From Henriciella sp. (GTDB lineage: Bacteria > Pseudomonadota > Alphaproteobacteria > Caulobacterales > Hyphomonadaceae), in assembly GCA_013213785.1 (NCBI GenBank), contig JABSPZ010000010.1, positions 1-64,000 on the forward strand: a stretch of 64,000 nucleotides of DNA, read 5' to 3'. Positions within the stretch are counted from its first letter, which is position 1, and every line of letters starts with the position of its first letter. Below the pieces are notes generated by a model that was given only the letters and a program-made list of their open reading frames with translations, did not search any database and was not told the origin of the DNA. A program made the translations under genes and the position numbers. Below, one piece after another: positions 46,029-50,432 of this stretch.

Positions 46029-47267
46029 ATGACTGACGCATCTCGGGCGGCTGCGCCCACCTCTTCGACTGAACGCTACCAAATTCTAGACGTGCTGCGC
46101 GGCTTTGCCCTGCTTGGGGTTTTAATCGCCAATCTGGACGAGCTTGGCGGGGAAGGCATGACTGCCACCGCTGAACAACTGGCCATGCTCTCCACCGCTG
46201 GCTTTGACCAAGCCGTCAAACGGGCGCTTGAGCTCTTTGTCTATGGCAAGGCCAATACGCCGTTTGCCATCCTCTTTGGCATTGGGTTTTGGATCCAGAT
46301 GGAGCGGTTGACCGCAAGGGGCGTAGCTTTTGGCAGCATCTATTTACGTCGGATCACGATTCTTGCCGTGTTTGGCACGATCCACATGCTCGGCTGGTTC
46401 TCCTGGGATATCCTTCATCTCTACGGCCTGCTCGCTTTCGCCCTTTATTTCAGTCGGTCTCTGTCTGATCGAGCTCTGTTATGGATCGGCGGCGCCCTCC
46501 TCGTCTTAGGAAAGCCTGTTCTCACTTGGGCAGGGGCTGAACTTGGATGGACGCAGGCTGGACTCGACGCCGCTTATACTGAGACCGAAGTCATGGCACG
46601 CTATGCCGCCGCGCAATCGGGCGATTTCATCGCCTATGTCGGGGCGATGAATAAACATATTTGGCTCGACTGGGTGCTTGGCGGAACACTCATCGCATGG
46701 TTCGCGTATGGCCTCGGGCGATTTTACATCGGTGCATGGATCGCCCGAAAAGGCTGGATCCAGAATGCTGAGACGCACCTGCCTATGGTCAAAAAACTGA
46801 CCCTTCCGCTCCTATTGAGCGGCCTCGGCCTCCAGATTTTCACACAAGAGATGTCGAGCTATCCGGCGATCGCAGCTCTTGCGGCACCTCCGCTCTGGCT
46901 GGAGATCCTCCACAATATCGCAACGCCGCTCATCGCCGCCGGCTATGTCTGCGCCCTGATCTGGCTGTTCTTTAGCGCTTCTTGGAAATGGCTCGCACGC
47001 CCGTTTGCCCCGGTAGGGCAGATGGCCCTCACCAATTACCTGATCCAAAGTCCATTTATTCTCTTGCTCCTAACAAATGCTGGTCCTGGCCTAGGTTTGG
47101 CGGGACATGCAGGCAGCGCTCCTTTCCTCATGCTGTCTCTAGGCTTCTTCGCCGTGCAAGTGATCGCGAGCCGTTTTTGGATGAAAGTCTTTGCTTATGG
47201 CCCCGCCGAGTGGGTCTGGCGCGGCCTTACCTATCGAAGCTTCCCGAAAATCCGACGCGAACGATAA
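46029..47267 (+). CDS. DUF418 family membrane protein
   Basis: ILDVLRGFALLGVLIANL; multi-TM; PVGQMALTNYLIQSPFILLLL. Confidence 0.9.
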   Translation: MTDASRAAAPTSSTERYQILDVLRGFALLGVLIANLDELGGEGMTATAEQLAMLSTAGFDQAVKRALELFVYGKANTPFAILFGIGFWIQMERLTARGVAFGSIYLRRITILAVFGTIHMLGWFSWDILHLYGLLAFALYFSRSLSDRALLWIGGALLVLGKPVLTWAGAELGWTQAGLDAAYTETEVMARYAAAQSGDFIAYVGAMNKHIWLDWVLGGTLIAWFAYGLGRFYIGAWIARKGWIQNAETHLPMVKKLTLPLLLSGLGLQIFTQEMSSYPAIAALAAPPLWLEILHNIATPLIAAGYVCALIWLFFSASWKWLARPFAPVGQMALTNYLIQSPFILLLLTNAGPGLGLAGHAGSAPFLMLSLGFFAVQVIASRFWMKVFAYGPAEWVWRGLTYRSFPKIRRER

Positions 47268-48540: not shown

Positions 48541-48577
48541 TCGACGCTCACCTCGAATTTTGCAAATTGCAACATTA

Positions 48578-48620
48578 AAAAGCCCGCCAGCACACAAAGG
48601 GGAATGGCTGACGGGCTGAA
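48578..48620 (-). terminator. Rho-independent terminator on minus strand
   Basis: Minus strand AGCCCGTCAG...CTGGCGGGCTTTTT; no coding gene precedes it on that strand. Confidence 0.65.
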
Positions 48621-48656
48621 GACATCTACGCTGTGTGGGTGCGTGGAATGTCGTTT

Positions 48657-48685
48657 TGACGTATTCGTCAGAAAAATACGTATTC
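48657..48685. promoter_or_regulatory. Two adjacent dyads / direct repeat ACGTATTC x2
   Basis: TGACG-tatt-CGTCA (48657-48670) and AATACGTATT (48675-48684); ACGTATTC repeated with 19-bp period. Confidence 0.4.
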
Positions 48686-48806
48686 CGATGGCCCGCTGAG
48701 ACAAATAGTCAAAATTTAGTACAAATTTCTGCGCATCGTTGCTCTTGCAACAGTTTCCTACTTGTCGTTGAGTGATCGAGATCGACCCAGGGCGGCATGA
48801 TTCAGA

Positions 48807-50432
48807 GTGGCGGACCAGCAAGAACACGCTGAAATAATTGAAAGATCCCGGGCAGAAGCGGCCCTCGCTCTGCTCCGTTCCTTGGCGCGCGCCGGCGAAG
48901 ACCCCGAAAAATTTGCACAGGCTTGCCGCGATTGGGCCAACCTCTCCGATGATGTCGAAAGCCTACCGGAGTTTCAGTCCGTTCTGTCTATGCTGACGGC
49001 GGAACCAAATGACATAGAAACACCAAACATAAGATGGCCGAGCGAACCAGCCGCAGCAACCGACACGTTTATGCTGGATGCGAAAGGCAAGATCTCAAGC
49101 CTTCCAAAAGAACTCGCGACACAATTCGATTTGAAAGTCGGCGACGTCTTACATCCTTCGCTTCAATCGAAAAATGCTCCGGATACTTCCCCATCTGGGA
49201 TGCTCATCGAGCTCGCGGATCGGTCGGGCGTTTCACGCCAGATAAAGATCTACCCCAAGCTGACCGAGGGAATGCTGTCAGGTTTTACGGGGCAGGTTTT
49301 TCTGTATCGCCTATCCGGCGCTGTTCGCACACATCTGACAAACCATTTCGGCGTAACCAGCAGCGAACTCGAAATTTTGGAACTTGTTCTCAGGCGGCAC
49401 CGCTTAGAACAGGTTGCTGAACTCCGCGGCATCAAATTGAATACGGTTCGAACGCACGTTGCGAGGCTGAATAATAAGCTTTGCTGCAAGAGCTTAACCG
49501 AAACGATTGCGATGACTGTGGAACTTTCGCAAGCGCTTAGCCTCCGCGCGGAGCCGCCACACGTTCTCGTCACCGAAGATGAAAATGCGTCCCGCCGGAT
49601 TGCACTGCGAAATGACAATCAATGCGTGGAGTATCGCCGGTTCGGCGCAGCACACGGTCGCCCAGTCATCATTTTACATTCATTGGAATATGGCTACCTC
49701 CCGTCCAAAGAGATGATCAACGCGGCCCGCAAAGACGGCATCAATTTGATTTTCCCACTGCGTCCGGGATTCGGTGAGACAACGCCGACGGGTTCGATCG
49801 GAGACGCAGCCAAAATGCTGGTCGAATTCATCCGCGTTCTAGGTCTCAGAGACATCATTCTTGTTGGACAATCCACATCGGCGCCCCTTGCATTAGAAAT
49901 TCAAACCCTAAGCCCGCGCATCGCGAAGACGGTATTGATCAATTATGGGCTCGATGTGAGCGACAAACTCTCAGCGATCCAACCAAATTGGCTGAATGGA
50001 TTGCTTCGCATGGGCCTCAGCTCTCGCGCAGGATTTGCGTTCGGGGCCCGCTCGCTTCGCACAATTAGTGAGACCTTTGGCGGCATGCGTTTCTATCGCA
50101 TGATGTACCGAAATCAGGATAGCGATTTGGCGTATTTGGAAGCCAATCTTGGACACTTCCAGCTCGCATCTGACTATCTCTATGGCGCCGATCTGAAGCA
50201 CACGCGTTTAGATCTGGAATCAGCCTTCCTGGATAATCCTCGCGCTGTGGATCTGCTGTCTGAAGTCTCACCTCTCATTGTCCTGAACAGCATGGACCAG
50301 CAAGGCGTTGGCCCGGAAGCTTCCAGAGAAGCCGCGGAACGTTTGGGGCTTGATTTTAGACCAATCGAGCATCCAGGTCGGAACTGGATGTTCCAGCACC
50401 CAGAAACGCTCTTCAAAGAGATCATGGATTAA
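48807..50432 (+). CDS. LuxR-type HTH regulator fused to C-terminal alpha/beta hydrolase fold
   Basis: HFGVTSSELEILELVLRRHRLEQVAELRGIKLNTVRTHVARLNNKLCCKSLTE (LuxR HTH) followed by RRFGAAHGRPVIILHSLEYGY...DIILVGQSTSAPLALEIQTL (alpha/beta hydrolase). Confidence 0.85.
   Translation: MADQQEHAEIIERSRAEAALALLRSLARAGEDPEKFAQACRDWANLSDDVESLPEFQSVLSMLTAEPNDIETPNIRWPSEPAAATDTFMLDAKGKISSLPKELATQFDLKVGDVLHPSLQSKNAPDTSPSGMLIELADRSGVSRQIKIYPKLTEGMLSGFTGQVFLYRLSGAVRTHLTNHFGVTSSELEILELVLRRHRLEQVAELRGIKLNTVRTHVARLNNKLCCKSLTETIAMTVELSQALSLRAEPPHVLVTEDENASRRIALRNDNQCVEYRRFGAAHGRPVIILHSLEYGYLPSKEMINAARKDGINLIFPLRPGFGETTPTGSIGDAAKMLVEFIRVLGLRDIILVGQSTSAPLALEIQTLSPRIAKTVLINYGLDVSDKLSAIQPNWLNGLLRMGLSSRAGFAFGARSLRTISETFGGMRFYRMMYRNQDSDLAYLEANLGHFQLASDYLYGADLKHTRLDLESAFLDNPRAVDLLSEVSPLIVLNSMDQQGVGPEASREAAERLGLDFRPIEHPGRNWMFQHPETLFKEIMD

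Follow-up and report, generated by a model that had tools for sequence, protein, structure and literature searches.

The best-known receptors derived from hydrolase folds are those of plants, namely GID1, D14 and KAI2. GID1 does not bind DNA; its lid recruits DELLA proteins, and it is related to the hormone-sensitive lipases, a hydrolase subfamily different from that of the protein described here. RsbQ, D14 and KAI2 keep the full Ser-His-Asp triad. The triad is also complete in DAD2, whereas in GID1 the His of the hydrolase ancestors has been lost and gibberellin is bound through Ser and Asp (PMC3531792). A bacterial system of a different kind is VqmA-VqmR of Vibrio, in which the PAS-HTH protein VqmA activates the small RNA gene vqmR (PMC7387800). 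The vqmR gene adjoins vqmA (PMC10426928), and VqmR represses aphA by pairing of its terminator loop with the ribosome-binding site (PMC6451090).

Here we compare with these systems a locus of the marine bacterium Henriciella sp. (assembly GCA_013213785.1), in which a regulator gene is accompanied by a divergent candidate small RNA. The window, that is, the whole stretch of DNA analysed, covers 64,000 nucleotides (contig JABSPZ010000010.1, positions 1 to 64,000).

Domain architecture of the regulator

The regulator gene and the parts of its product are placed as follows.

48807-50432, plus strand: regulator gene, PAS - LuxR-type HTH - alpha/beta (pseudo)hydrolase, 541 residues
49065-49300, plus strand: PAS-like sensor domain, approximately residues 87-165, from the strand and helix order of the AlphaFold2 model
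49356-49514, plus strand: LuxR/GerE helix-turn-helix, residues 184-236, with Arg215-Thr216-His217 invariant in nine aligned sequences
49599-50429, plus strand: alpha/beta-hydrolase-fold domain, residues 265-541, with Ser356 kept and the catalytic His replaced by Arg525
49866-49883, plus strand: altered nucleophile elbow GQSTSA, residues 354-359, with Ser356-Thr357 invariant in the nine-sequence alignment

The ORF begins with GTG and has no internal stops. An initial annotation of this DNA had described it as a single ORF coding for a LuxR-type HTH in mid-protein and an alpha/beta hydrolase at the C-terminus, a description borne out by Pfam, AlphaFold2 and Foldseek; the N-terminal region, then called sensor-like, models as a PAS domain. 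The full-length AlphaFold2 model, made from a nine-row alignment with a mean pLDDT of 73 (92-94 in the elbow region), starts with helices at the N-terminus and continues through a PAS-like sheet and an HTH to a complete alpha/beta-hydrolase fold. Pfam matches GerE at residues 184-236 (E 4.5e-5, 23.4 bits, marginally short of the 23.5 cut-off), a separate model of residues 1-248 has HTH helices, as expected of a four-helix GerE-like domain, and GerE is matched by 14 of 15 members of the wider fusion family. The match to Abhydrolase_6 at residues 293-536 is above the cut-off (36.2 bits against 26.3), and Foldseek of the C-terminal half finds aryl esterases and haloperoxidases at E ~1e-11, in keeping with the alpha/beta-hydrolase core fold and its nucleophile elbow. 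The model of residues 1-248 comes closest, among solved PAS-HTH structures, to EL222 and VqmA, with FixL and other PAS domains matched more weakly; this assignment comes from a moderate model (pLDDT ~75-89) and weak Foldseek scores (E ~1e-5). Pfam gave no PAS match for the regulator (one other family member matches PAS_8) and none to the autoinducer-binding domain of LuxR-type AHL receptors. Taken together, the Pfam, AlphaFold2 and Foldseek matches therefore give the layout PAS - LuxR-type HTH - hydrolase fold.

The HTH of LuxR/GerE regulators is usually, if not obligatorily, C-terminal; here the hydrolase domain comes after it. The initial annotation had stressed this placement, which is less unusual than was stated: a PAS domain leading into a LuxR-type HTH is a familiar combination, here extended by a hydrolase domain. 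EL222 (LOV-HTH) likewise carries a PAS-class sensor directly before its LuxR-type HTH, and differs in being a flavin-based light sensor with no hydrolase domain.

Orthologues and the wider fusion family

Orthologues of the regulator were found in nine other genomes (G1042, G002, G007, G010, G014, G015, G024, G470 and G032), of which the named ones are MAGs labelled Henriciella, Hyphomonas or Hyphomonadaceae, with a distant orthologue in Marinicaulis (G032). Every one is a single ORF, which excludes the frameshift merger of two genes that the initial annotation had considered. Identity to the regulator is 83% for one orthologue, 46-51% for the rest of the genus and 29% for Marinicaulis. Where the regulator lies at its conserved site between the VWA_CoxE and acyl-CoA dehydrogenase genes, genomes that share only 50% identity in the regulator share 93-99% in the flanking proteins. 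Against G002 the regulator has the ninth lowest identity of 107 reciprocal best hits (50.7%, median 84.8%), and six of the pairs below it, at 25-36%, look like non-orthologues. Judged by these identities, the regulator evolves fast at a fixed genomic place. An acyl-CoA dehydrogenase gene and a TonB receptor gene lie downstream; they adjoin the regulator in one clade and not in the other, and were therefore not used to infer function. Two genes upstream of the regulator, at 46029-47267 in the window, a DUF418 protein shows 52% identity between genomes, which is nearly the regulator's divergence; it is missing from the same place in locus L036.

A profile of the fusion family matched in 68 of the 299 genomes searched in the order, in 33 of the 399 in the phylum and, at a looser cut-off, in 18 of the 395 in the class. 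The 68 full-length fusions reduce to 55 distinct representatives, all from Pseudomonadota; by these profile matches the HTH-hydrolase order is not unique to the window and is common in the order. Public plasmid records also hold such fusions, among them WP_011536845.1 of Ruegeria sp. TM1040 ('alpha/beta fold hydrolase') and WP_260519347.1 of Aliiroseovarius sp. M344 ('LuxR C-terminal-related transcriptional regulator'). Both resemble the regulator in overall layout and length, and a sister protein from the fusion family aligns with them over 98-99% of its length. Their nucleophile/His pairs are D/H and G/Q, respectively, against S/R in the regulator. Searches of open-licence papers found no characterised LuxR-hydrolase fusion. 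Such fusions are already in databases under generic names; what appears to be new is their reading as receptors and the RNA partner.

A tandem pair of different HTH-hydrolase fusions is present at G166:C16:229921-233592 (L084 and L102), with nucleophile/His residues V/Q and A/F. The Henriciella genome itself carries a second fusion of 567 residues (G000:C8:90787-92466, L004/L083), which has Ala in place of the nucleophile and Gln in place of the His and lies on a very long tree branch.

The catalytic site of the hydrolase domain

The elbow GQSTSA, Asp497, His522 and His531 are all where the initial annotation had placed them, and one of the two late His residues had been expected to complete a triad with Ser356 and Asp497. 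Pairwise matching to the solved esterase MGS-MChE2 instead puts Arg525 on the His of the late GH motif, and Ser356 on the elbow Ser (GNSLGG). Across nine aligned sequences the Ser356 column reads SSSSSSSSS and the Asp497 column DDEDDDDDH (an acid in eight of nine), the Arg525 column, at the canonical position of the catalytic His, reads RRRRRRRRR, and the Asn526 column is invariant (NNNNNNNNN). His522 (HHHHYYYYA) and His531 (HHHHHHNHR) are both variable, and completion of the triad by either was ruled out, as neither is conserved. The nucleophile-acid-His triad is accordingly absent: Ser356 and, for the most part, Asp497 are present, and the His is Arg in all nine. The residues that should line the former active site (His291, Ser292, Ser356, Thr357, Arg525 and Asn526) are invariant in the same alignment.

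In the fusion family as a whole, a Ser, Asp or Cys nucleophile together with the His is kept in eight of 55 representatives and the pair is broken in 47. The commonest nucleophile/His pairs are Ala/Gln (11), Ser/Arg (8, the regulator's clade) and Gly/Gln (5), and the remaining broken representatives have Gln with various partners or other pairs. On an unrooted tree at least two changes between broken and intact states are needed, and most simply four. Where the elbow can be aligned, the ordinary hydrolases of this genome have Ser or Asp at the nucleophile and, by eye, nearly all retain the C-terminal His. Because the pair is broken in 47 of 55 representatives, the hydrolase domain most likely serves as a non-catalytic receptor that binds a ligand, and not as an enzyme. 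Family members that keep the full nucleophile and His may be capable of catalysis.

Several individual proteins illustrate the range of states. L089-L092, L140 and the Ruegeria sp. TM1040 protein (L189) combine an Asp nucleophile with an intact His, in the manner of haloalkane dehalogenases or epoxide hydrolases, and are possibly active. Three stand-alone paralogues in the Henriciella genome, L002 (G000:C3:56844-57638), L003 (G000:C13:19082-19849) and L005 (G000:C6:91627-92232), have no HTH and are close in sequence to the C-terminal domain of the regulator. With Gly at the nucleophile (GMGSAN, GLGTTN and AMGSSN) they are likely a second group of dead hydrolases; L005 carries a stop in the assembly.

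These residue patterns bear on two other accounts of the C-terminal domain. It might still be an active sensor-enzyme that hydrolyses or covalently captures its signal through Ser356 and a non-canonical base, and the invariant Ser356-Thr357, the acid retained at 497 and the S/H or D/H pairs of some relatives would suit such a role. We regard it as improbable, given Arg in place of the canonical His in every aligned sequence, the variation of His522 and His531, and the replacement of the nucleophile by Ala, Gln, Val or Gly in other fusion clades. Of the initial annotation's suggestion that the fold senses or destroys the signal, the one-component regulator and the sensing part stand as the likely reading; a Ser-Asp-His triad that destroys the signal does not, and an enzyme is probably the wrong reading of these sequences. 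Alternatively, the domain may be a ligand-free dimerisation scaffold with the PAS domain alone sensing, since in EL222 and VqmA a PAS domain and an HTH suffice for a regulator and catalysis has been lost in most of the fusion family. A scaffold would hardly require the old active-site lining to be invariant in a protein only 46-51% identical to most of its genus orthologues, and stand-alone relatives with the same LHS/LNS...PPS motif exist; this account therefore seems unlikely to us, if not so far-fetched as an enzyme.

A divergent small RNA candidate

The region between the upstream VWA gene and the regulator contains these features.

48574-48656, minus strand: candidate divergent small RNA of approximately 85 nt, two hairpins with C-rich loops
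48581-48617, minus strand: hairpin 2, resembling a terminator, loop AUUCCCCUUUGU, with a U run after it in this genome; all 13 pairs preserved in eight sequences
48621-48652, minus strand: hairpin 1, loop CACCCACAC here and GACCUUCUUUGU in the other clade; five pairs changed on both sides
48657-48670, no strand assigned: palindrome TGACG-N4-CGTCA on the 5' side of the RNA, a candidate operator or small 5' hairpin, conserved in eight loci
48703-48728, no strand assigned: conserved AAATAGTCAAAATTTAGTACAAATTT AT-rich block between the divergent units, a candidate promoter or operator

The stretch from the VWA stop (48540) to the regulator GTG (48807) is conserved in eight loci, despite the far-side gene being VWA_CoxE in one clade and DUF3291 or others in the second; the regulator side is constant. 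In the minus-strand direction, 48656 to 48574, the candidate folds with z -5.8 against shuffles, compared with z -2.9 for the plus strand. All 104 cells of hairpin 2 are paired, with both-side changes in seven of its 13 pairs, whereas controls in which the pairing was slid reach 32-42%. Its minus-strand reading has 11 G-U cells and no A-C cells, and the RNA is therefore placed on the minus strand. Hairpin 1 is weaker than hairpin 2: 74% of its cells are paired, and the slid controls give 21-50%. Only at some loci does a clear U-tail follow hairpin 2, which leaves the 3' end of the RNA uncertain. No Rfam family reached its gathering threshold (weak scores were RybB, 19.9 of 40 bits, and anti-hemB, 15.1 of 49.5 bits).

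Among 29 genomes of the genus the same nine carry both the regulator and the RNA candidate, and 20 carry neither. If the two were independent, full agreement would be expected by chance approximately once in 10 million (1 over 29-choose-9), a figure that ignores relatedness, which is real. A covariance model of the RNA finds a single match in each of the nine genomes; most of these trained the model, so that presence there is by construction, and the new information from the search is that the RNA is single-copy, that it is absent from the other 20 genomes, and that it occurs in G470. This genome, outside the training set, has the RNA candidate approximately 130 bases upstream of its own regulator, in divergent orientation; as a hold-out it is mild, its RNA being 97% identical to training sequences. 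No RNA candidate was recognisable near the distant Marinicaulis orthologue. Nor was one found near other fusion clades, either in alignments of two of them or by the model in genomes that carry such clades.

Few parts of the RNA candidate are as conserved as loop 2 (AUUCCCCUUU or AAUCCCCUUU). Complements of the hairpin-2 loop, AAAGGG and AAGGGG, occur just upstream of five and four of 285 ORFs, respectively, with none in a control stretch; these counts are suggestive only as a sign of mRNA targets. The same prediction with the complement of this clade's hairpin-1 loop gave nothing.

The hairpins could also be explained without a small RNA, as the upstream gene's bidirectional terminator or as the 5' leader of the regulator mRNA. 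Hairpin 2 starts only 41 bases past the VWA stop in this genome, the plus strand folds too, and a consensus scan for a sigma-70-type promoter found none. For a plus-strand leader the wobble pairs of hairpin 2 are on the wrong strand, and that form was disfavoured on this asymmetry; as for a terminator, the upstream gene is different or oppositely oriented in the second clade, and a terminator has no need of so conserved a loop. On balance we think an explanation of this kind has a minor chance of being right, and prefer a minus-strand small RNA.

As to regulatory sites, the initial annotation had proposed an operator at 48657-48685. The palindrome at 48657-48670 upholds the first part of this proposal, and the second ACGTATTC copy is not conserved. 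In the Ala/Gln clade a common ATCATCAA-NN-TTGATGA-like palindrome lies upstream of the fusions in L016, L026, L027 and L111 (weaker in L020); it resembles the ATCATCAAAATT block upstream of the present clade and is possibly a shared autoregulation operator.

A proposed mode of action

The reading we favour, at a probability of roughly 0.55, is that of a one-component regulator with a dead-hydrolase receptor, whose most likely direct target would be the intergenic region that it shares with the divergent small RNA, in an arrangement resembling VqmA-VqmR. The ligand pocket would have Ser356 at the old nucleophile, the acid at 497 and the invariant Arg525-Asn526 where the catalytic machinery stood. 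A ligand bound there, and perhaps in the PAS domain as well, would alter DNA binding by the HTH, most probably at the intergenic region common to the regulator and the RNA, where the palindrome and the AT-rich block are the candidate control sites. The regulator would thereby switch the expression of the RNA, made in the opposite direction to its own gene, and the C-rich loops may pair with Shine-Dalgarno-type AAAGGGG sequences of target mRNAs and block them.

The likeness to VqmA-VqmR lies in the PAS domain followed by a LuxR-type HTH (VqmA being, with EL222, in the best Foldseek group), in the regulator gene adjoining a small RNA gene, here a predicted one, and in a terminator loop with the potential to pair with ribosome-binding sites. 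It is a likeness of arrangement and not demonstrated orthology: the Henriciella regulator has an added C-terminal pseudohydrolase, its RNA gene is divergent, and nothing points to the same ligand (DPO).

For the hydrolase domain, the initial annotation had drawn its analogy from RsbQ and D14. These, and KAI2, share the use of an alpha/beta-hydrolase fold in signalling and differ in their intact triad; GID1 is the better analogy because it has lost the His. Like GID1, the regulator has an alpha/beta-hydrolase fold in which the catalytic His is gone and Ser and Asp are kept. The comparison is one of working and not of family, with ligand binding by the regulator presumed from it, and it sets a plant receptor that does not bind DNA beside a DNA-binding regulator.

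More tentatively, PAS-HTH-pseudohydrolase proteins might form a new class of one-component receptors in bacteria, in which a dead hydrolase would act as a hormone-like receptor and the output would be a dedicated divergent small RNA whose loops are anti-Shine-Dalgarno; such a system would be the alphaproteobacterial equivalent of VqmA-VqmR, equipped with a GID1-like sensor. The linked RNA is what makes the locus more interesting than the initial annotation had stated. Its strict pairing with the regulator offers a ready readout, the RNA level, for finding the ligand. More widely, a large bacterial family joins a hydrolase-fold domain directly to a DNA-binding domain, and shows repeated changes at both catalytic positions beside a few possibly active members; the step from enzyme to receptor can therefore be studied inside one family.
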